From positions 1 to 41,483 of the forward strand of contig NZ_VAVZ01000034.1 in assembly GCF_005771525.1 (NCBI RefSeq): a DNA stretch of 41,483 bases, in the 5' to 3' direction. A model generated the notes under the pieces. It did no database searches. It was not told the origin of the DNA and worked only from the letters and a program-made list of their open reading frames with translations. This stretch comes from Nesterenkonia salmonea. Its GTDB lineage: Bacteria > Actinomycetota > Actinomycetes > Actinomycetales > Micrococcaceae. The position numbers and the translations under genes are program-made. Below, piece after piece: positions 2,973 to 9,633 of this stretch (its first letter is position 1; each line of letters opens with the position of its first letter).

Positions 2973-4364
2973 TCAGTGTGATTGCTTCCACTCGGCCCAG
3001 CCTGCGTAGCTTCCAACGAGCTCCCGGACATCGTGGCCTTCTCGCCTCAGGGCGCTTGCGGCCACTGAGTTCCGCACTCCGGACTGGCAATAGGTCACGA
3101 TTGGGCCGGCGGTTGGCAGCTGATCCTGGTGCCAGAGAACACGGCCAGCGCTGATCTGCTCAGAGCCTGGAATGTGACCCTTTGAGTGTTCGGACTTGTT
3201 CCGGACATCCAGCAGCAGGGCCGGTTCAAAGTTTTCCAGCTCAGCGGGCGTGATGGTGGCCGGCTGTGTCTTCAACAGCCCTTCAATGCTGGTGATGTAG
3301 CCCTTGACCCGATCAATGCCGACCCTCATGAGATGCTCACGCAGGGACTCTGCCTGTTCCTGGTTTTCAGCAAGCAGGATCAGCGGCCGCGTCTCCCGCT
3401 CGGGATCGTAGGCCCATGCGCCGAAGCTTGCAGTTTTGCCTCCGGCGGGAATGTTCAGGGCGCCGACCGGGGTGCCGTGCTTAACCTTGTCCTGGGACCG
3501 GGTATCGACGAATACCGCCCGCTCCTCCTCCAAGGCACTGCGGACCTGGTCCACAGTCATCTCCACCAGGGGCCCCTGTGGACCCAGGACGACGGGACCG
3601 TCCTTGTTCTCCCGCTTCATGCGTCCGAAATATGCGTGCGCGTCGGGTTGGCCGTCGAGAAGTTCGTCGATGAAGCCCTGCTCGTCGTCGTTGCTCACGT
3701 ACTGCGACCACCAAGCGTTGGCACGTTCGTAGCCGACCGTGGTGGAGGGCAGTGCACCGAGTGCTTTTCCGCAGGCGCTGCCTGCACCGTGGCCGGGGTA
3801 CACCATGACGTGGTCCGGAAGAGTGACAAACTCGTTCCGGAGGCTGCTGAACAGCTGCTTGGCCCCCTCGAAGCGGGTGTCCTGTCCGCCTGCAGCCTCA
3901 TCCAGGAGGTCTGGGCGCCCTAGGTCACCTGCGAAGACAAAGTCTCCGGAGATCATGTATCCGGGGTCCTGGCTGAAGGCGCCGTCAGTGACAAGGAATA
4001 CAAGGTGCTCAGGGGTGTGGCCAGGAGTGTGGCGAGCCTCAATACGGATGTTTCCAATCGAGATCACATCTCCATGATTGAGCCGTTTGGCGTCAAAACC
4101 GTACTGCCAATCCTCGCCGCCCTCACCTGAAACATAAGCATCGGCGCCCGTGGCAGCGGCAAGCTCTCGCGTACCGGAGAGGTAGTCAGCGTGGATATGG
4201 GTCTCCGCCACAGCGGTGATGCGCATACCGTGGCGCTCCGCCAGGTCAAAGTAGTCGCTCAGATCGCGACGGGCGTCAATCACCACCGCTTCACCCTTGG
4301 ACTGGCAGCCGATGAAGTAGCTGGCCTGGGCTAGATCCTCGTCGTAAATGCGCTCGAGAAGCAT
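2973..4364 (-). CDS. cstB: persulfide dioxygenase-rhodanese fusion (CstB-like)
   Basis: A 463-residue multidomain enzyme. The N-terminal metallo-beta-lactamase fold (about 1-250) has THIHAD (His56, His58, Asp60), GHTPEH (His116), SGDFVFAGD (Asp141) and YPGHG (His192). By comparison with human ETHE1, His56, His116 and Asp141 would bind the catalytic iron. Two rhodanese domains follow: the first (about 265-360) lacks the active cysteine, the second (about 372-463) has YCQSGVR with Cys426. CstB enzymes oxidise persulfides, releasing thiosulfate or sulfite. ATG 4364 is chosen because GGAGAGGG lies just upstream; an in-frame ATG at 4436 lies inside the operator and would add 24 atypical residues. 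It is the first gene of the cst-like operon and is probably repressed by the CstR-type protein. Confidence 0.9.
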   Translation of the reverse strand: MLLERIYDEDLAQASYFIGCQSKGEAVVIDARRDLSDYFDLAERHGMRITAVAETHIHADYLSGTRELAAATGADAYVSGEGGEDWQYGFDAKRLNHGDVISIGNIRIEARHTPGHTPEHLVFLVTDGAFSQDPGYMISGDFVFAGDLGRPDLLDEAAGGQDTRFEGAKQLFSSLRNEFVTLPDHVMVYPGHGAGSACGKALGALPSTTVGYERANAWWSQYVSNDDEQGFIDELLDGQPDAHAYFGRMKRENKDGPVVLGPQGPLVEMTVDQVRSALEEERAVFVDTRSQDKVKHGTPVGALNIPAGGKTASFGAWAYDPERETRPLILLAENQEQAESLREHLMRVGIDRVKGYITSIEGLLKTQPATITPAELENFEPALLLDVRNKSEHSKGHIPGSEQISAGRVLWHQDQLPTAGPIVTYCQSGVRNSVAASALRREGHDVRELVGSYAGWAEWKQSH

Positions 4365-4394
4365 GAGATCGTTCCCTCTCCGTAGACAAACTGG

Positions 4395-4410
4395 ATACCC
4401 CGTGGGGTAT
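4395..4410. promoter_or_regulatory. CstR/CsoR-type operator, promoter-distal copy 1
   Basis: ATACCCC-GT-GGGGTAT, an inverted repeat with 7-bp arms just upstream of the cstB ribosome site. The pattern of TA flanks and a C-run/G-run dyad is the known operator style of CsoR-family repressors. It is the inner of two copies whose centres are 33 bp apart, about three helical turns, so two repressor tetramers could bind the same face. Confidence 0.8.
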
Positions 4411-4427
4411 TGATGTGAGTCTGCCAG

Positions 4428-4443
4428 ATACCCCATGGGGTAT
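4428..4443. promoter_or_regulatory. CstR/CsoR-type operator, copy 2
   Basis: ATACCCC-AT-GGGGTAT, a perfect 16-bp palindrome differing from the first copy only at the central base pairs. It lies 64 bp or more upstream of the cstB start codon and probably overlaps the promoter. A TTGCAT-like element borders it on the minus strand, but I cannot place the -10 with confidence. Confidence 0.8.
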
Positions 4444-4520: not shown

Positions 4521-5516
4521 CTAGATCACGCAGCCGGAGAGGACTGCAGCTAATGCTGCGCCGTGGGCCGTAATACTCGTCACAACGAGGACCGCCATGA
4601 GCGCGACGATCGCCGCCGCGCCGAGGGCGCCCTGTCGCGGATCGAGGGGGGAAACCAGCTGCCGCACCCGTTCCGGGCCTGCAGCCAGCAGAATCCGCCG
4701 TGGGCCCCCGCGTTGGGCTGCAATTCTCTGCTCGTTGCTGGCCTGACCCATGATCAGCAGTGCCGAGGCCAAGGGTCGCGTGCCGACTCGGCGCTGCGCG
4801 GCATTGTCCGCCGAGATCTCCAAATAGTGCGGAATCGAGTCGGCAATCGCTGCGGCAAAGGGAACCCAGCGCAGAGGGCCGGTGATGCTGCCGATGAAAT
4901 CCAGAATGAGGTGGTGCCGCTCGCGCAGGTGCGCCGCCTCATGCTCGAGAACCGCGCGCAGCTCGTAGGCGCTCAGTTTCTCAAGTAGCCCCGTGGATAC
5001 GATAATCCCGCAGCGGCCTCGCCCCAGCGCGAAGGCAGCAGGCTGCGGATCAGCAACCACTGTGACCTGATATCCGGCCACGCTCTCGGTGCGCCCCACC
5101 GGCAGCAGGGACTGACAGGTCTCCCGAAGACGCGCATGGCGAGTCCGTACAGAGCGCAGACCCATCGCCGCCACCACCAGCACTGCCAGCACCGGCGCCA
5201 GCAGAAAGACGACGGATGGCACTGTGGTCTCGACAGCAAGGCCGGAGGAGAATGGGTTGGAAGCCTCCAAGCAGCGCTGACACACGTCGGCTATCGGCGA
5301 AGGAAGAGGACTGGGGCCGGTGATGGACCAGGCAAGGAACAGTCCTGCAGCCACCAAAGAGGCCATCCACAGCAACAGGCCACCGCTCAGAGAGACCACA
5401 GCGACGCGCGGAAATCGCATCAACATCGGTGTTGCTGCTCGGATCAGGGGGCGACCTACAGTGGCCACCGCCAGAACAATGCCCACCATCAGAAAAGCCA
5501 GCAGAAGAGAATTCAC
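4521..5516 (-). CDS. M56-family membrane metalloprotease (BlaR1-like, no sensor domain)
   Basis: A 331-residue membrane protease. Hydrophobic segments lie near 4-20, 38-64, 100-120 and 301-325. The zinc motif is HEAAH (192-196), with the third ligand in YLEISAD (Glu233). It would cleave and inactivate its partner BlaI-type repressor, encoded just upstream with a GTGA overlap; the start is GTG 5516. Unlike BlaR1 (about 600 residues) it ends after the last helix and has no penicillin-binding sensor domain, as in many actinobacterial M56 proteins. The loop between helices 2 and 3, extracytoplasmic by the BlaR1 topology, contains Cys79-Gln-Arg-Cys82, a CxxC pair. Since the divergent operon encodes a DsbA-like protein and CcdA, a redox signal is a reasonable guess but is not shown. 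Confidence 0.85.
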   Translation of the reverse strand: MNSLLLAFLMVGIVLAVATVGRPLIRAATPMLMRFPRVAVVSLSGGLLLWMASLVAAGLFLAWSITGPSPLPSPIADVCQRCLEASNPFSSGLAVETTVPSVVFLLAPVLAVLVVAAMGLRSVRTRHARLRETCQSLLPVGRTESVAGYQVTVVADPQPAAFALGRGRCGIIVSTGLLEKLSAYELRAVLEHEAAHLRERHHLILDFIGSITGPLRWVPFAAAIADSIPHYLEISADNAAQRRVGTRPLASALLIMGQASNEQRIAAQRGGPRRILLAAGPERVRQLVSPLDPRQGALGAAAIVALMAVLVVTSITAHGAALAAVLSGCVI

Positions 5517-5902
5517 GGGGTGCCTCGTGATGTGTCGTCATCGAGGTAGGCCCGCAGAAGGTCCCGTTCCTCATCCGGCATGGTGTCCACGAAGTGCAAA
5601 ATTGACGCTCTTCGATCACGACTGACACCTAAGGCCTGTCGCATCAGCGCCGCCGTATGCTGCTCGCGGGTGCAGCGTGGTTTGTAGCGGACTGACCTCC
5701 CGTCGCGCTGTGCTTCAACGAGGCCTTTGCGTTCGAGGTTTCCCATTACCGTGGCGATGGTCGTGTAGGCGGGCCTGCTGGAGAGCTGATCCATCACTTC
5801 GCGCACGGTGTGCGAGGAGTGATCCCACAGGAGGTCCATCACCCGCTGTTCCAAAGGGCCAAGCCGTTCACCGGTGACTGGGGGCTGGGGATCGGCATTC
5901 AT
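5513..5902 (-). CDS. BlaI/MecI-family transcriptional repressor
   Basis: A 129-residue winged-helix repressor. Residues about 11-75 carry the BlaI fold, with LGPLEQRVMDLLW, the recognition-helix region AYTTIATVMGNLERKGLV and a basic wing (RDGRSVRYKP). The C-terminal half (80-129) is the dimerisation and cleavage domain. The start is ATG 5902, which overlaps the preceding stop as ATGA; upstream codons in the same frame belong to that gene's shadow. It is encoded between a CPVC membrane protein and the M56 protease. It probably binds the tandem CATAGTTACTATG palindromes at 6503-6531, repressing both its own operon and the divergent dsbA-ccdA operon until cleaved by the M56 protein. Confidence 0.9.
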   Translation of the reverse strand: MNADPQPPVTGERLGPLEQRVMDLLWDHSSHTVREVMDQLSSRPAYTTIATVMGNLERKGLVEAQRDGRSVRYKPRCTREQHTAALMRQALGVSRDRRASILHFVDTMPDEERDLLRAYLDDDTSRGTP

Positions 5903-6471
5903 GCTGTGACGGTCACCTTCTGAACGGGCACCGCACACGCCACCTGACCTTTGAGCCGCCAGATCAGAGCCACCGCGGTCAGCACCATGGCACCCAAGGC
6001 GAGGAACGGCTGAATGGGAGCAAAATAAGTGATGGCTCCAGAGTATCCGAAGGCTACCAGTGCGATTTTGTTGCACACCGGGCAGCCCACGGCAAACCAC
6101 GCCATCACGCCGCCGACCATCCCGAATCGACTGCTGCGCCGATCCTCCGCCGCAGACGCTCCGGATGATTGAGCCTCAGCAGCAACTTCATCCGGCGCTG
6201 CCAGCTTGGACGCCCGAACATAGGTGCCCAGGAGCATGCCGCTGAGCACCGATGTCAGAAGCCATACTGGATAGTTCCACCACACCGGAGCGATGTCACG
6301 GGCGAACCATGGGTTGGGAATCAGCACCGTCGCCACACCAATAGCCAATCCGATAACCACAGCAGCTACTACAGCCACTAACACTTGACGAGTGGTCCAC
6401 GAGCGCAGGGCCTGAGCAGCCAACGCAGCAGATGCCCGCCAGGAGGCAAATCGAGTTGAGAGAGAAACCAT
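5899..6471 (-). CDS. four-helix membrane protein with CPVCNK motif
   Basis: A 190-residue integral membrane protein of unknown function. Hydrophobic segments lie at about 29-51, 66-86, 118-145 and 147-172, with a long polar, alanine-rich cytoplasmic or external loop (90-115) between the second and third. The third helix contains GCPVCNK (Cys130, Cys133), an intramembrane CxxC, and there is another cysteine at 179. Membrane CxxC motifs suggest dithiol redox chemistry or soft-metal binding. This is not a VKOR or MerT that I can recognise. It heads the operon with blaI-type and M56 genes and faces dsbA/ccdA-like genes across the shared operators, so a part in extracytoplasmic thiol traffic is inferred. 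Confidence 0.75.
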   Translation of the reverse strand: MVSLSTRFASWRASAALAAQALRSWTTRQVLVAVVAAVVIGLAIGVATVLIPNPWFARDIAPVWWNYPVWLLTSVLSGMLLGTYVRASKLAAPDEVAAEAQSSGASAAEDRRSSRFGMVGGVMAWFAVGCPVCNKIALVAFGYSGAITYFAPIQPFLALGAMVLTAVALIWRLKGQVACAVPVQKVTVTA

Positions 6472-6499
6472 GCGTCCACTATGCCTGACTTTTACTAAC

Positions 6500-6531
6500 T
6501 TGCATAGTTACTATGTCGCATAGTTACTATG
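6500..6531. promoter_or_regulatory. tandem BlaI-type operators over a divergent promoter
   Basis: Two identical palindromes, CATAGTTACTATG at 6503-6515 and 6519-6531, repeat with a 16-bp period. On the plus strand a possible -35 TTGCAT (6500-6505) and -10 TACTAT (6525-6530, 19-bp spacer) are embedded in them, so a bound repressor would block transcription of the dsbA-like gene at 6573. The minus-strand operon starts at 6471, so the same sites should also control the repressor's own operon. A further half-like TTACTAA lies at 6492-6498. Confidence 0.75.
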
Positions 6532-6572
6532 AACGGTAGTCAAATACTCTCTCCTCGAAAGGTACGCCCGTC

Positions 6573-7373
6573 ATGCCTGACACCACCCCCACTCGGCAGA
6601 AACCACCCCTGCGGGTATCCGCCGTTCTTCCGACCGTCGTCATCATCGTCGCCGCCGCGCTGACAGCGTTCGTCGTGTGGCAGGCCATTGGCGAGGACTC
6701 GGCCCAGCAAACGACGGATACAGCTGAGCAGCCACAAGGTGCGGGTGCCGCCGATGGTGGCGACTCGGAAACGGACGGGCCGGTAACCGTCCCTGAAGGT
6801 GGCGCAGAACCGGAACAGCCAGACATGAGTGACATAGAGCGTCGTGACCCTGAGGACTTGCTGGCTGTCGGCCCCGCGGATGCGCCGGTCGCGATCGTAA
6901 TGTTCACAGACTTTCAATGTCCCTTCTGTGCCACCTGGCATGAAGAGACTCTGCCCACCATGATGGACTACGTCGAAGCGGGTGAGCTCAGAATTGAGTG
7001 GCGCGACGTCAACGTCTTCGGTGAGGCCTCAGAGCGCGCCGCTCGCGCCTCCTACGCCGCAGCGCTGCAGGACGAATTCCTGAGCTATCACGAGCTGCTC
7101 TTCCCGGACGGCGAGACGCTCTCCGAATCTGAACTCAGCCAAGAGGGCCTCACAGCACTCGCGCAGCAGGTGGACCTGGATATCGCTCAGTTTGAAGAGG
7201 ACATGAATTCAGCAGAGGTCGCAGACCAGATCAATGCGAACGCAGAAGAGGGACTCGCTATAGGAGCCTACTCAACACCTGCGTTCATCGTTGCCGGAGA
7301 ACCGATTGTCGGAGCCCAACCCACTGATGTTTTCGTCACGGCTGTCGATGACGCCCTAGCAGAGAACGACTGA
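6573..7373 (+). CDS. membrane-anchored DsbA-family thioredoxin
   Basis: A 266-residue protein. One hydrophobic anchor (about 15-38) is followed by an acidic, low-complexity linker (40-95) and a DsbA-like thioredoxin domain (about 96-262). The active site is FQCPFC (Cys116, Cys119) and the cis-proline loop is YSTPAF (about 231-236). It is probably extracytoplasmic and either makes or reduces disulfides in exported proteins. The acidic linker fits a salt-adapted host. A CGAAAGG ribosome site precedes the ATG, and its stop overlaps the next start as TGATG. It leads the operon dsbA-ccdA-lipoprotein, divergent from the blaI/M56 operon, with BlaI-type operators at its promoter. CPFC is less oxidising than some DsbA motifs; the direction of electron flow cannot be told. 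Confidence 0.88.
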   Translation: MPDTTPTRQKPPLRVSAVLPTVVIIVAAALTAFVVWQAIGEDSAQQTTDTAEQPQGAGAADGGDSETDGPVTVPEGGAEPEQPDMSDIERRDPEDLLAVGPADAPVAIVMFTDFQCPFCATWHEETLPTMMDYVEAGELRIEWRDVNVFGEASERAARASYAAALQDEFLSYHELLFPDGETLSESELSQEGLTALAQQVDLDIAQFEEDMNSAEVADQINANAEEGLAIGAYSTPAFIVAGEPIVGAQPTDVFVTAVDDALAEND

Positions 7374-8248
7374 TGGAGATAAGTCTGGTCACCGCCTTCC
7401 TGGGCGGTATGCTCGCACTGCTCAGCCCGTGTAGTGCTCTACTGCTGCCCGCGTTCTTCGCCTCCACCATCGGGACTCGGCTGCAGCTCCTGACTCATGG
7501 TGCGACCTTCTACCTCGGGCTCATCATCACGCTAGTGCCACTCGGGCTGGGCTTGGGTGCGGTAGGCACACTCTTCGTCGAGCACCGGGAAGCTCTCATC
7601 ATCATTACCTCGCTGGTCCTCATAGTCCTGGGGGTCATTCAGATGGTGGGGTTGGGCTTCGACTTTTCGAAAGCCCTTCCCGGGAATCAGCGCCTGCAAC
7701 AGACTGCCCATGAACGAAAAGGGCTTCTCCGCACTTTTCTCTTAGGTGCAGCCAGCGGCGTAGCGGGCTTCTGTGCCGGGCCAATCTTGGGGGCGATCCT
7801 GACCCTCGCGATCGCGCAGGGCAGCGTCACGCAGGCAGGGCTCATGCTCGCCGTCTACGGTGCAGGCATGGTGGTGCCGCTGGTGATTTTGGCTGCGCTC
7901 TGGGAGCGCATTGGATCCCGGTCGATGAGACTGCTCAGAGGGCGCGGCTTCTCACTCTTCGGTCGCCGACTGCACACCACCTCAGTCGTCGCCGGAGCAC
8001 TGATCACCGGTGTCGGGGTGCTTTTCTGGACCACCAACGGCCTTGTGACAGCGCCTTCGCTAGTGCCCAGTGAAACCCAAGGATGGCTGCAGACGATTAG
8101 CTCCTCAGTCTCTGGGCCCGTGGCCGATATCCTGATGATCCTCGTGGTCACCGCGATCATCCTCCTCGTCTGGTCTGCCAGTCGCCGTTCCGGCCGACGC
8201 CGCGCGCAGCACGAGACCTCAGACATCCCAAAGGACACGCAGCAATGA
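7373..8248 (+). CDS. ccdA: CcdA/DsbD-type transmembrane electron carrier
   Basis: A 291-residue integral membrane protein with about six to seven hydrophobic segments. The CcdA redox cysteines are visible: LLSPCSALLLP in helix 1 (Cys20) and GFCAGPILG (Cys134) at the equivalent place in the second repeat. CcdA moves electrons from cytoplasmic thioredoxin to extracytoplasmic thiol proteins, here most likely the DsbA-like protein encoded 1 bp upstream. A polar, arginine-rich tail after residue 268 is cytoplasmic. The next gene starts inside its stop (ATGA). Cytochrome c maturation is an alternative role, but no other cytochrome biogenesis genes are nearby. Confidence 0.9.
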   Translation: MEISLVTAFLGGMLALLSPCSALLLPAFFASTIGTRLQLLTHGATFYLGLIITLVPLGLGLGAVGTLFVEHREALIIITSLVLIVLGVIQMVGLGFDFSKALPGNQRLQQTAHERKGLLRTFLLGAASGVAGFCAGPILGAILTLAIAQGSVTQAGLMLAVYGAGMVVPLVILAALWERIGSRSMRLLRGRGFSLFGRRLHTTSVVAGALITGVGVLFWTTNGLVTAPSLVPSETQGWLQTISSSVSGPVADILMILVVTAIILLVWSASRRSGRRRAQHETSDIPKDTQQ

Positions 8249-9483
8249 CTTCACCAGCTCTGTCGCGCCTGCCCACCAGTGGGATGGGGCTCCTTGGCGT
8301 CCTTGGACTCATCCTGGTCGCCTGCTCCTCAGATCCGGGCGAGGAGCCCACCACCGGTGAGGACAGAACCCAGCAGGAGGCTGACATTGACCCCGAACCG
8401 GTCAGCGTCCAGTCTCTCGCCTCCGAAGCCAGCCTGGACGACGTCCACCTTCCGACGCATCTGACAGATCGCGTCACAGTCGATCCGCAGTGGGACACTC
8501 CGCCGCAGATTCACGACGACGTTTTCCTCGCTCCCGGCGAGGAGGACGGCAAACTCGTATTCACAGCGGTGCACGCTGACGGAACCACACTGTGGACCGC
8601 AGAACGTCCACTCAGCTGCTCCGGGTTTGCTGTGACCACAGCCGATGATCGGCCACTGGCGGTGCTGACAAACCTCACAGACGACGACGCGACGCAAGAC
8701 TCGCTCGGCACAACAACGGCCAGCGCCTACGACCTGCGCACCGGCGAAGAAGTGTGGGGACCTGTCGACGTCCCTGGACCTCATCAGGGTCCGGGCCTGG
8801 TGTTCACTGAAAAACCTGATGAGCCTATGGGTGAGTCAGGCCAGCGGGTCGCTCTGGACTCTTCCACCGGCGAGCGCAGCGAGCACGACGCCCACCTCGT
8901 CGGAGAGTTCTTCGGAACCATTGTGGTCACTGATGGGGGTGAGCTCCTCGCGTCCACCGGGGATGGAGCGAATGAGCTGTGGCGAACGCCCGTACCTCAA
9001 ACCTTCGCAGAGACCGAGACCTCAGAGCTGGTGAGCCCACCCACCAACCGACTGCCCCCTGGGAATGCGCTGATCGGCTCACCGGACGAAGGGTACGGGC
9101 TCTGGGACCTCGCACAGGGCGAGCTGCTGGCCGAAGAGTTGGACGACGCACTGTTCGACCTCATGGCGGAGATCTGGGTCGGTGTTCGGGAGGACGAACT
9201 CATGGGCTTGGACTCCGGTGGTGAGGAGATGTGGTCAGAGGTTCTCGGCCCGGACGCCCGCCTGCTGGGGGCGGGCGGTGTGATGGCCTATGTCCTCACC
9301 GATGAAGGGGACCTGAGCATATTGAACACGGTCACTGGCAGCATCGCGCTAGTCTACGATCCCCTAGGAGAGGGCGCCACAGCTATACCAGTCGGCTTCA
9401 CAGACAGAGGTGCCACAGTGGTGGATACCGGCACGGAACTCCTGCTGGTCACCGAAGCCCCTCGCGCTGAGAACTCACCCTGA
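8245..9483 (+). CDS. secreted lipoprotein with PQQ-like beta-propeller repeats
   Basis: A 412-residue lipoprotein. The signal peptide ends in the lipobox LVAC (Cys27) and is followed by an acidic linker rich in Glu, Asp and Thr. The remainder has repeated beta-propeller-like units (for example LFTAVHADGTTLWTA-type and DLRTGEEVWG-type strands) like the PQQ/WD40-like lipoproteins that act as scaffolds or binding proteins outside the cell. No enzyme active site is recognisable. It overlaps ccdA by 4 bp and ends the operon, so it may be the client or sensor of the thiol system. Strong acidity is seen throughout. Confidence 0.7.
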   Translation: MTSPALSRLPTSGMGLLGVLGLILVACSSDPGEEPTTGEDRTQQEADIDPEPVSVQSLASEASLDDVHLPTHLTDRVTVDPQWDTPPQIHDDVFLAPGEEDGKLVFTAVHADGTTLWTAERPLSCSGFAVTTADDRPLAVLTNLTDDDATQDSLGTTTASAYDLRTGEEVWGPVDVPGPHQGPGLVFTEKPDEPMGESGQRVALDSSTGERSEHDAHLVGEFFGTIVVTDGGELLASTGDGANELWRTPVPQTFAETETSELVSPPTNRLPPGNALIGSPDEGYGLWDLAQGELLAEELDDALFDLMAEIWVGVREDELMGLDSGGEEMWSEVLGPDARLLGAGGVMAYVLTDEGDLSILNTVTGSIALVYDPLGEGATAIPVGFTDRGATVVDTGTELLLVTEAPRAENSP

Positions 9484-9559: not shown

Positions 9560-9633
9560 TGGAGCGGCTGACGGGAATCGAACCCGCGTCGTCTGCTTGG
9601 GAAGCAGAAGCTTTGCCATTAAGCTACAGCCGC
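9560..9633 (-). tRNA. tRNA-Gly(CCC)
   Basis: A complete cloverleaf on the minus strand. The acceptor stem GCGGCTG pairs with CAGCCGC, the D stem GCTT with AAGC and the anticodon stem TCTGC with GCAGA around the loop TTCCCAA (anticodon CCC). The T arm has the TTCGATT loop. The discriminator is U and the CCA end is encoded (9562-9560). U73 is usual for bacterial tRNA-Gly. It stands alone between convergent and divergent protein genes. Confidence 0.95.

Follow-up and report, generated by a model that had tools for sequence, protein, structure and literature searches.

A BlaI/M56 regulator pair beside DsbA/CcdA genes in Nesterenkonia salmonea: a possible circuit for extracytoplasmic thiol stress

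To our knowledge, actinobacterial M56 proteases which lack a penicillin-binding domain are common, with what they sense being largely an open matter. One such protease is encoded, together with a BlaI-family repressor, in a 41,483-nucleotide stretch of Nesterenkonia salmonea DNA (contig NZ_VAVZ01000034.1; 'the window' here refers to the whole of that stretch). There the pair stands back to back with genes for DsbA-like and CcdA-type proteins, that is, with genes of extracytoplasmic thiol chemistry. What, then, might this pair be controlling, and to what might it be responding? Our reading, held with slightly better than even confidence, is of a dedicated actinobacterial circuit, mobile in part, that answers thiol (or persulfide) stress beyond the cytoplasm and is built upon the BlaR1/BlaI plan. 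The underlying module itself is real and conserved, and very likely is co-regulated. If the reading is true, then a cysteine-driven M56 would represent a new kind of input for switches of the BlaR1/BlaI family, serving here an envelope thiol or persulfide stress response. An M56 subfamily whose three conserved cysteines are located outside of the protease domain, and which is tied by operators to DsbA/CcdA, gives a concrete and testable input for such proteases, and the module hints at a way in which Gram-positive actinobacteria might keep watch on thiols beyond their membranes.

The divergent module and its operators

The regulator operon, found on the minus strand, is led by the gene for a 190-aa membrane protein possessing a CPVC motif (5899-6471; cysteines C130, C133, and C179). 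This is followed by genes for the 129-aa BlaI-family repressor (5513-5902) and the 331-aa M56/M48-type membrane zinc protease (4521-5516), with successive overlaps of 4 bp each. Diverging from these, on the plus strand, are genes for a DsbA/MdbA-like thiol oxidoreductase (6573-7373), for a CcdA-type membrane electron carrier (7373-8248), and for a propeller-like lipoprotein (8245-9483), with overlaps of 1 bp (dsbA/ccdA) and 4 bp (ccdA/lipoprotein gene). Between the start codons of the two operons are tandem 13-bp perfect palindromes, CATAGTTACTATG in both cases, the first at 6503-6515 (operator 1) and the second, 16 bp from it, at 6519-6531 (operator 2). A first-pass annotation of the sequence had described six genes, their order, overlaps, and motifs, and an operator region at 6503-6531, all of which are indeed present as it described them. 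The tandem pattern, even with up to 3 mismatches allowed, occurs but once in the 3.28-Mb genome. Palindromes with up to 2 mismatches number 2, versus a mean of 0.43 over 100 shuffles, at least 2 being seen in 3 of those 100. No sigma-70-like promoter was found in a scan of 6380-6640.

The DsbA-like protein is of the thioredoxin fold family (Thioredoxin_4, 5e-23), with its CPFC cysteines (C116 and C119) and a proline at the cis-Pro place (P236) invariant over 20 rows, and with 7unn and 4pwo ('DsbA') as its closest solved chains. The CcdA-type protein matches DsbD_TM (1.4e-11) as well as the CcdA chain 5vkv (E = 3e-14), its C20 and C134 being invariant in 21 rows, i.e., as is expected of a CcdA/DsbD_TM protein. 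In the lipoprotein it is the lipobox cysteine, C27, that is invariant (13 rows), while the match to PQQ_2 (6e-6) falls just under the cut-off, with PQQ_2 found at E ≤ 0.01 in 12 of 13 homologues. Rows of these three alignments were hand-picked. DsbA/CcdA-type pairs, as known from DsbD/CcdA, carry electrons outward, reducing or isomerising extracytoplasmic disulfides.

Whether this layout exists beyond the one strain was a question raised by the first-pass annotation, and a search of actinobacterial genomes answers that it does. Relatives of the CPVC protein number 210; the top-scoring 80 were retained, or 67 after dropping CPVC proteins that are at least 85% identical, a set which is biased towards close relatives. 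Within 5 kb of the CPVC gene in these 67 loci are found BlaI (57), DsbA (56), CcdA (52), BlaI along with M56 (51), and the lipoprotein (34), with neither DsbA nor BlaI present in 9. DsbA is divergent from CPVC in 49 of the 67; CPVC, BlaI, M56, DsbA, and CcdA are found together in that layout in 40, and all six genes in 27. Hosts of the BlaI+M56 version include Nesterenkonia, Leucobacter, Brevibacterium, Dietzia, Isoptericola, Corynebacterium, Amycolatopsis, Nocardia, and Rhodococcus.

The operator travels with the module and also, in part, with dsbA. Of 77 BlaI+M56 loci, 62 have the strict operator, TAGT-N1-2-ACTA, close to the start of CPVC, with 89 sites in the 44 kb around CPVC starts versus 22 in the remaining 963 kb of sequence from the same loci, counts which include near-duplicate loci. 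Eleven of the 22 outlying sites are at most 89 bp from where the open reading frame (ORF) of a relocated or second dsbA begins (Leucobacter, Yaniella, Agrococcus, and Promicromonospora). The other 11 consist of 2 ordinary module sites (L077, L104), entered as 'elsewhere' owing to over-long ORF starts, 5 near a CsoR-family gene (4 of these in island copies), 3 in Yaniella that are near a BlaI or lipoprotein start, and 1 unplaced. Put the other way around, relocated or second dsbA genes number 19, and 11 of them, over four genera, have an operator at their start; L104 is not among the 19, its dsbA being of the ordinary divergent kind. Exact ATAGTNNACTAT, as sought in 14 whole genomes (~63 Mb), occurs 14 times, versus 0 for a reversed-pattern control. 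Eleven of these 14 sites are intergenic within the module, 1 is at a second dsbA, 1 precedes a cstR-like gene, and the last seems to be within an unrelated gene; three of the 14 genomes have no exact site. Because the operator is thus seen at the module, at second dsbA genes, and at few other genome sites, dsbA-ccdA very likely belongs, as judged from sequence, to the BlaI regulon. The earlier suggestion that BlaI is wired to the DsbA/CcdA unit gains support from those 11 of 19 dsbA genes and from 13 of the 14 exact sites.

Additional operators of this type are seen as well. In Brevibacterium casei a BlaI-type operator precedes a cstR-like gene that is followed by one for an apparent S-adenosylmethionine (SAM)-methyltransferase, a site which would tie extracytoplasmic to cytoplasmic sulfur sensors. 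In a mobile island (Cellulosimicrobium; Microbacterium plasmid), an extra operator of the same type stands before a 183-aa hypothetical ORF with three cysteines, possibly a further BlaI regulon member. Five Dietzia loci possess, beyond the first DsbA-CcdA pair and on the same strand, a second and different such pair, with the strict operator absent.

Cysteines of the protease and of the repressor

The window protease scores better against the Pfam model for M48 (3e-13, 50 bits) than against that for M56 (2.5e-4, 20.8 bits, with a cut-off of 31), i.e., it misses the Peptidase_M56 cut-off. Its HExxH (192-196) and E233 nonetheless are invariant in an alignment of M56 proteins (36 of 49 rows used). 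The predicted structure has a pLDDT (predicted local distance difference test) of 88.8, declining to near 50 over the last residues, with long helices at 3-32, 36-64, 101-137, and 293-326. A Foldseek search with this model places the BlaR1 chain 8exr_A at rank 2 (E = 0.033, probability 1.00, TM-score 0.31), behind an M48-type peptidase at rank 1 and with nothing found at E ≤ 0.001. The protein appears to behave as an M56, a family membership which the sequence model does not prove and which rests instead on the catalytic motif, the operon shared with BlaI, and a weak fold match.

The protease had been described as 'sensor-less'. A domain search indeed detected no penicillin-binding domain in its 331 aa, but the description otherwise does not stand. 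Particularly, a CxxC (C79-Q-R-C82; codons 5271-5282, minus strand) is found, in 51 of 51 module loci, within the loop that links helices 36-64 and 101-137, that is, in what would be the equivalent of the EL1 loop of BlaR1. A further cysteine, C329 (codon 4530-4532, minus strand), lies past the last long helix; its column is Cys in 46 of the 51, and a Cys within the last 14 residues, at the end where the beta-lactam sensor of BlaR1 is found, is seen in 48, the three lacking one having reading frames that are cut by the end of the locus. Apart from C79, C82, and C329, no column of the 51-locus alignment has as many as 10 cysteines. One divergent module locus, L194, has its loop cysteines as CxxxxC and is kept outside of the CxxC counts. 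The EL1 loop of BlaR1, which joins helices 2 and 3, lies outside of the cell and extends to the partner subunit's C-terminal sensor domain (PMC9834060), and by that analogy the loop cysteines of module M56 proteins presumably are extracytoplasmic.

The same cysteines are not general to M56 proteins. Over two draws of M56 loci that were not chosen by way of CPVC, the loop CxxC is present in 10 of 10 module proteins versus 0 of 51 others. These consist of a family draw (30 loci by the Pfam M56 model plus 1 by BlaI), with 7 of 7 versus 0 of 24, and a phylum-wide draw (30 loci), with 3 of 3, the window's included, versus 0 of 27. Both draws are of best-scoring matches rather than random ones, and in every row at least 146 residues precede the HExxH, which covers the loop. 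One locus, L117, was scored as module because its contig has a CPVC gene 2.4 kb upstream, while a hand-added locus, L150, was kept outside of the draw counts. A single non-module M56 in the phylum-wide draw does have a CxxC, but further upstream and, by distance to the HExxH, outside of the loop. The genome of the window itself has a single second BlaI-family match, which adjoins an M56-like gene without the CxxC. From these alignments a strong case can be made that module M56 proteins carry a cysteine-based input.

The repressor matches Penicillinase_R (PF03965) over the whole of the protein (E = 1.5e-25, 90 bits, with a cut-off of 22.6). Its nearest solved chain is 2g9w (E = 1.3e-16), which we take to be the mycobacterial BlaI, Rv1846c. 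A phenylalanine, Phe104, is found in 51 of 51 M56-partnered BlaI proteins. According to what is available of PMC9834060, the BlaI of Staphylococcus aureus is cut by BlaR1 between Asn101 and Phe102, so Phe104 would seem to be equivalent to the place of cleavage by BlaR1 and is consistent with cleavage by M56.

BlaI proteins for which no M56 was seen differ in their cysteines. Following removal of near-identical rows (8 of 13 used), 6 of 8 carry a Cys at position 80 and another at position 100, versus 0 of 51 partnered BlaI, with the remaining 2 having a Cys at position 86. Residues ahead of the cut place drift in these M56-less proteins, with Phe104 kept in 6 of 8. The pattern fits a shift of sensing cysteines from protease to repressor, and BlaI of the M56-less branch probably senses directly, via its own two cysteines.

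A proposed circuit and the signal it may sense

The circuit might operate as follows. BlaI would bind both of the tandem palindromes, as operator conservation suggests, silencing both operons. The M56 would be embedded in the membrane, with a zinc site that faces the cytoplasm, and, in place of a beta-lactam domain, would expose an EL1-type loop CxxC along with a cysteine past its last helix, as indicated by sequence and model and, for sidedness, by BlaR1. Were these cysteines to change, whether to a disulfide, a persulfide, or some otherwise modified form, the protease would become active and may then cut BlaI next to Phe104, releasing both operons. Electrons would pass from cytoplasmic thioredoxin to CcdA to DsbA, with DsbA then reducing or isomerising extracytoplasmic thiols, and with the CPVC tri-cysteine protein and the lipoprotein perhaps assisting it. 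Re-reduction of the M56 cysteines would turn the system off. A more ambitious version sees here a novel class of redox signalling across the membrane, one in which the M56 CxxC and C-terminal Cys drive BlaI cleavage, in which cysteines shift to the repressor upon loss of the protease, and which spreads with sulfide-oxidation genes on plasmids and islands. To that version we give somewhat less than even credence.

Neighbouring genes bear on what the signal may be. Adjoining the module in the window, on the minus strand, are genes for a persulfide-dioxygenase (SDO)/rhodanese-like fusion (2973-4436; Lactamase_B and Rhodanese domains) and, over 1026-2875, for a CstR-like regulator (1026-1343), a TauE exporter, and a rhodanese-TM protein. 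Two CsoR-type palindromes belong to this sulfide operon itself, ATACCCCGTGGGGTAT at 4395-4410 and ATACCCCATGGGGTAT at 4428-4443; the longest SDO reading frame begins at 4436, inside of these two palindromes, with the true start of the fusion probably near 4364. Four residues before its second Cys the window CstR-like regulator has an Ala, versus a His in four other CsoR-family genes of the genome, this His presumably being the copper ligand of CsoR. Besides those four copper-type genes, the genome also holds a second CstR-like gene without the copper His. Among module-linked CsoR-family regulators, the His is absent from 11 of 12 rows, the twelfth being unreadable. Using five sulfur queries (SDO, two rhodanese types, TauE, and DsrE), at least one match is seen near 14 of 57 module loci versus 0 of 20 control BlaI/M56 loci from the same family (Fisher p = 0.009). 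The 57, used for the copper test as well, are those of the 67 loci with lengths of at least 9 kb.

Various observations weigh against the thiol-stress reading. A sequence-profile search of the M56 against solved chains returns M48-type chains only, with BlaR1 not among them, and a Mycolicibacterium plasmid possesses a CPVC relative that is near, though not co-operonic with, a BlaI/M56 pair lacking the CxxC. The strict operator is missing from the scanned region in 15 of the 77 BlaI+M56 loci, 6 of which carry one elsewhere in the locus, and it is absent from near the start of 8 of the 19 relocated or second dsbA genes (5 in Dietzia and 1 each in Gulosibacter, Brachybacterium, and Brevibacterium). 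As M56-less BlaI rows share ancestry, their two-cysteine pattern may represent a single event. Within ~1.5 kb of the best 30 class-wide CPVC loci, BlaI with M56 is present in 5 and DsbA in 11 (12 if a partial match is counted), BlaI matches below ~140 bits not being used. Four of the 14 sulfur-linked loci have weak matches, leaving 10 of 57 that are strong; the pooled sulfur test was assembled after inspecting the loci, with single families reaching only p = 0.028; and 43 of the 57 have no tested sulfur family within ~6 kb. As for metals, a heavy-metal P-type ATPase is found near 3 of the 57 module loci versus 0 of 20 controls; a haloarchaeal CPVC relative (pHTUR01) has in its neighbourhood genes for a multicopper oxidase, for a four-helix copper-binding protein, and for two thioredoxin-like proteins; and a CxxC plus an additional Cys would suit Cu(I), Hg(II), or Zn(II) as well. 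As support for a thiol or persulfide input, the sulfur-gene neighbourhood is modest. It is the cysteine and regulon evidence which carries the odds given to the thiol-stress reading. The first-pass annotation's proposal of thiol or disulfide sensing stands in part, with conserved M56 cysteines and the two cysteines of M56-less BlaI in its favour, but with copper, another soft metal, or persulfide fitting those same cysteines. As input, thiol or persulfide state is the likeliest, followed by soft metals.

A narrower form of the thiol-stress reading is that of a response specifically to sulfide or persulfide (sulfane sulfur), with M56 becoming persulfidated and with DsbA/CcdA, along with SDO, rhodanese, TauE, and CstR, stripping sulfur from extracytoplasmic thiols. 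The SDO-rhodanese-TauE-CstR set that adjoins the module in the window is seen also in the mobile island, an operator precedes the cstR-like gene of Brevibacterium casei, a DsrE gene adjoins CcdA, replacing the lipoprotein, in one Arthrobacter and one Rhodococcus plasmid, and a SUL module is found beside the CYT module of Antarctic Arthrobacter plasmids, per the accessible text of PMC6305408. With sulfur families near just 14 of 57 loci, 10 of them strong, and with the window sulfide operon being under its own CsoR-type palindromes, so narrow a response nevertheless strikes us as rather doubtful.

Unlikely, in our estimation, is a sensor of soft metals (copper, mercury, or similar), for which M56 cysteines would bind the metal, and DsbA, CcdA, and CPVC would repair or carry metal-damaged thiols, as in Scs. 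In ScsABCD copper-tolerance systems a DsbA-like protein is fed by a CcdA/DsbD-like membrane protein, with regulation that differs and is not known to involve BlaI/M56. Such a sensor would agree with the kinship of BlaI to CopY/TcrY (NCBIfam; 5e-8, 33 bits, well below a cut-off of 122), with weak matches of the DsbA to chains labelled 'suppression of copper sensitivity', 'copper resistance', and 'metal resistance' (E from 4e-6 to 6e-4), with weak MerT matches (E ≤ 1) of 14 of 50 CPVC proteins, and with the haloarchaeal copper genes and module-linked ATPases noted above. Sulfur families are commoner nearby, however, than is that ATPase; readable module-linked CsoR-family regulators, like that of the window, lack the copper His; and PF02411 (MerT), as sought in 100 family genomes, gave a single weak match, away from CPVC loci.

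The M56 cysteines could instead form a purely structural disulfide, as made by the co-regulated DsbA and involving no sensing. The cysteines are, after all, conserved and, by comparison with BlaR1, extracytoplasmic, with DsbA very likely co-expressed. Other M56 proteins, though, do without these cysteines, and M56-less loci have theirs in a cytoplasmic BlaI, beyond DsbA's reach, making this quite improbable. That the pair mediates an ordinary cell-wall or beta-lactam response and is beside dsb genes by chance is hardly credible given an operator tied to dsbA, an M56 in which no penicillin-binding domain was found, and a CxxC confined to module M56 proteins, even if BlaI/M56 pairs are of a known kind and the genome's second pair lacks the CxxC.

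Known relatives, the CPVC protein, and mobility

The module resembles S. aureus BlaR1/BlaI (from the accessible text of PMC9834060) in its membrane zinc protease, helix 2-3 extracellular loop, BlaI partner, Phe at the cleavage place, and divergent operons. It is unlike BlaR1 in that its M56 lacks a C-terminal beta-lactam sensor, having instead three conserved cysteines, in the loop and at the C-terminal end, and in that its targets are thiol genes. The mycobacterial BlaI Rv1846c has as targets blaC, atpH, and sigC, as reported in what is available of PMC8265638. The targets of module BlaI differ from these, the likeness being that of the nearest solved chain.

A closer relative is the CYT module of Antarctic Arthrobacter plasmids. 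There, as far as the accessible text of PMC6305408 goes, a COG3682 regulator as well as DsbA and CcdA-type proteins are found beside sulfur genes, no M56 is annotated, DsrE replaces the lipoprotein, and energy gain from sulfur oxidation is proposed. One of these plasmids, pA58H2, is among the CPVC loci examined (L149), and in loci related to it BlaI of the CYT type possesses two cysteines of its own. The earlier remark that no description of such a circuit was known needs amending to this extent, that is, an M56-less form is known, although within that same portion of PMC6305408 neither an M56 nor a sensing proposal appears. In open-licence literature, as covered mostly at abstract level, no proposal of a BlaI/M56 thiol circuit was found, which is weak evidence of absence, nor was any report of the module's operator, regulon, or cysteine patterns. 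CstR/SDO persulfide operons adjoin the module both in the window and in the island, but the module's circuit would be extracytoplasmic and proteolytic. CstR, by contrast, is a cytoplasmic sensor.

The CPVC protein is the least familiar of the six. Its C130, C133, and C179 are present in 67 of 67 non-redundant loci, with the core CPVCNK invariant in an alignment of 50 rows, from 74 available (73 plus that of the window). The window protein matches no Pfam family at E ≤ 0.01, and a fold search with its predicted structure (pLDDT 81.5) found nothing at E ≤ 0.001, the top match being TSPO at E = 1. Two candidate identities were rejected. One was half of a CcdA, with hhalign comparison of CPVC and CcdA alignments giving a probability of 0.4%, and the other was MerT, with no PF02411 match by the window protein and with the best of the sub-threshold matches among the 50 members being 6e-4. 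As set against the pA58H2 gene table, PMC6305408, in the part available, appears to class the equivalent CPVC gene as a second CcdA.

CPVC is present in 43 of 394 genomes of a class-wide draw and, as few class-wide CPVC loci show BlaI with M56, it has a wider life, often with DsbA/CcdA, for which BlaI/M56 is one mode of control. This tri-cysteine family would gain, from the circuit proposed, a functional setting. On Streptomyces, Rhodococcus, and Arthrobacter plasmids, CPVC relatives are found beside DUF302 (all three) and lgt/lnt or DsrE genes. In two class-wide loci (L186, L198) CPVC adjoins, as judged by eye, an apparent TDT/tellurite-sulfite-type transporter.

Distribution is patchy, with a CPVC match in 41 of 197 family genomes, including 5 of the 11 same-genus genomes listed. 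The plasmid version of the mobile island has genes for lnt, trxA, TauE, a rhodanese, an MBL-fold (SDO-type) protein, the six module genes, a methyltransferase, and a CsoR-family regulator. The island, 12.5 kb in length, is 99.94% identical between Cellulosimicrobium and the Microbacterium plasmid, which by this sequence identity is very recent horizontal transfer. Further matches are to Microlunatus (99.0%), Haematomicrobium (96.9% over 11.9 kb), and Thermocrispum (98.8% over 7.5 kb). An M56-less version is located within a transposable element on an Arthrobacter plasmid, as noted in the portion of PMC6305408 that is available. In the window, a tRNA-Gly(CCC) gene at 9560-9633, directly beyond the lipoprotein gene, represents a possible integration point of the module.

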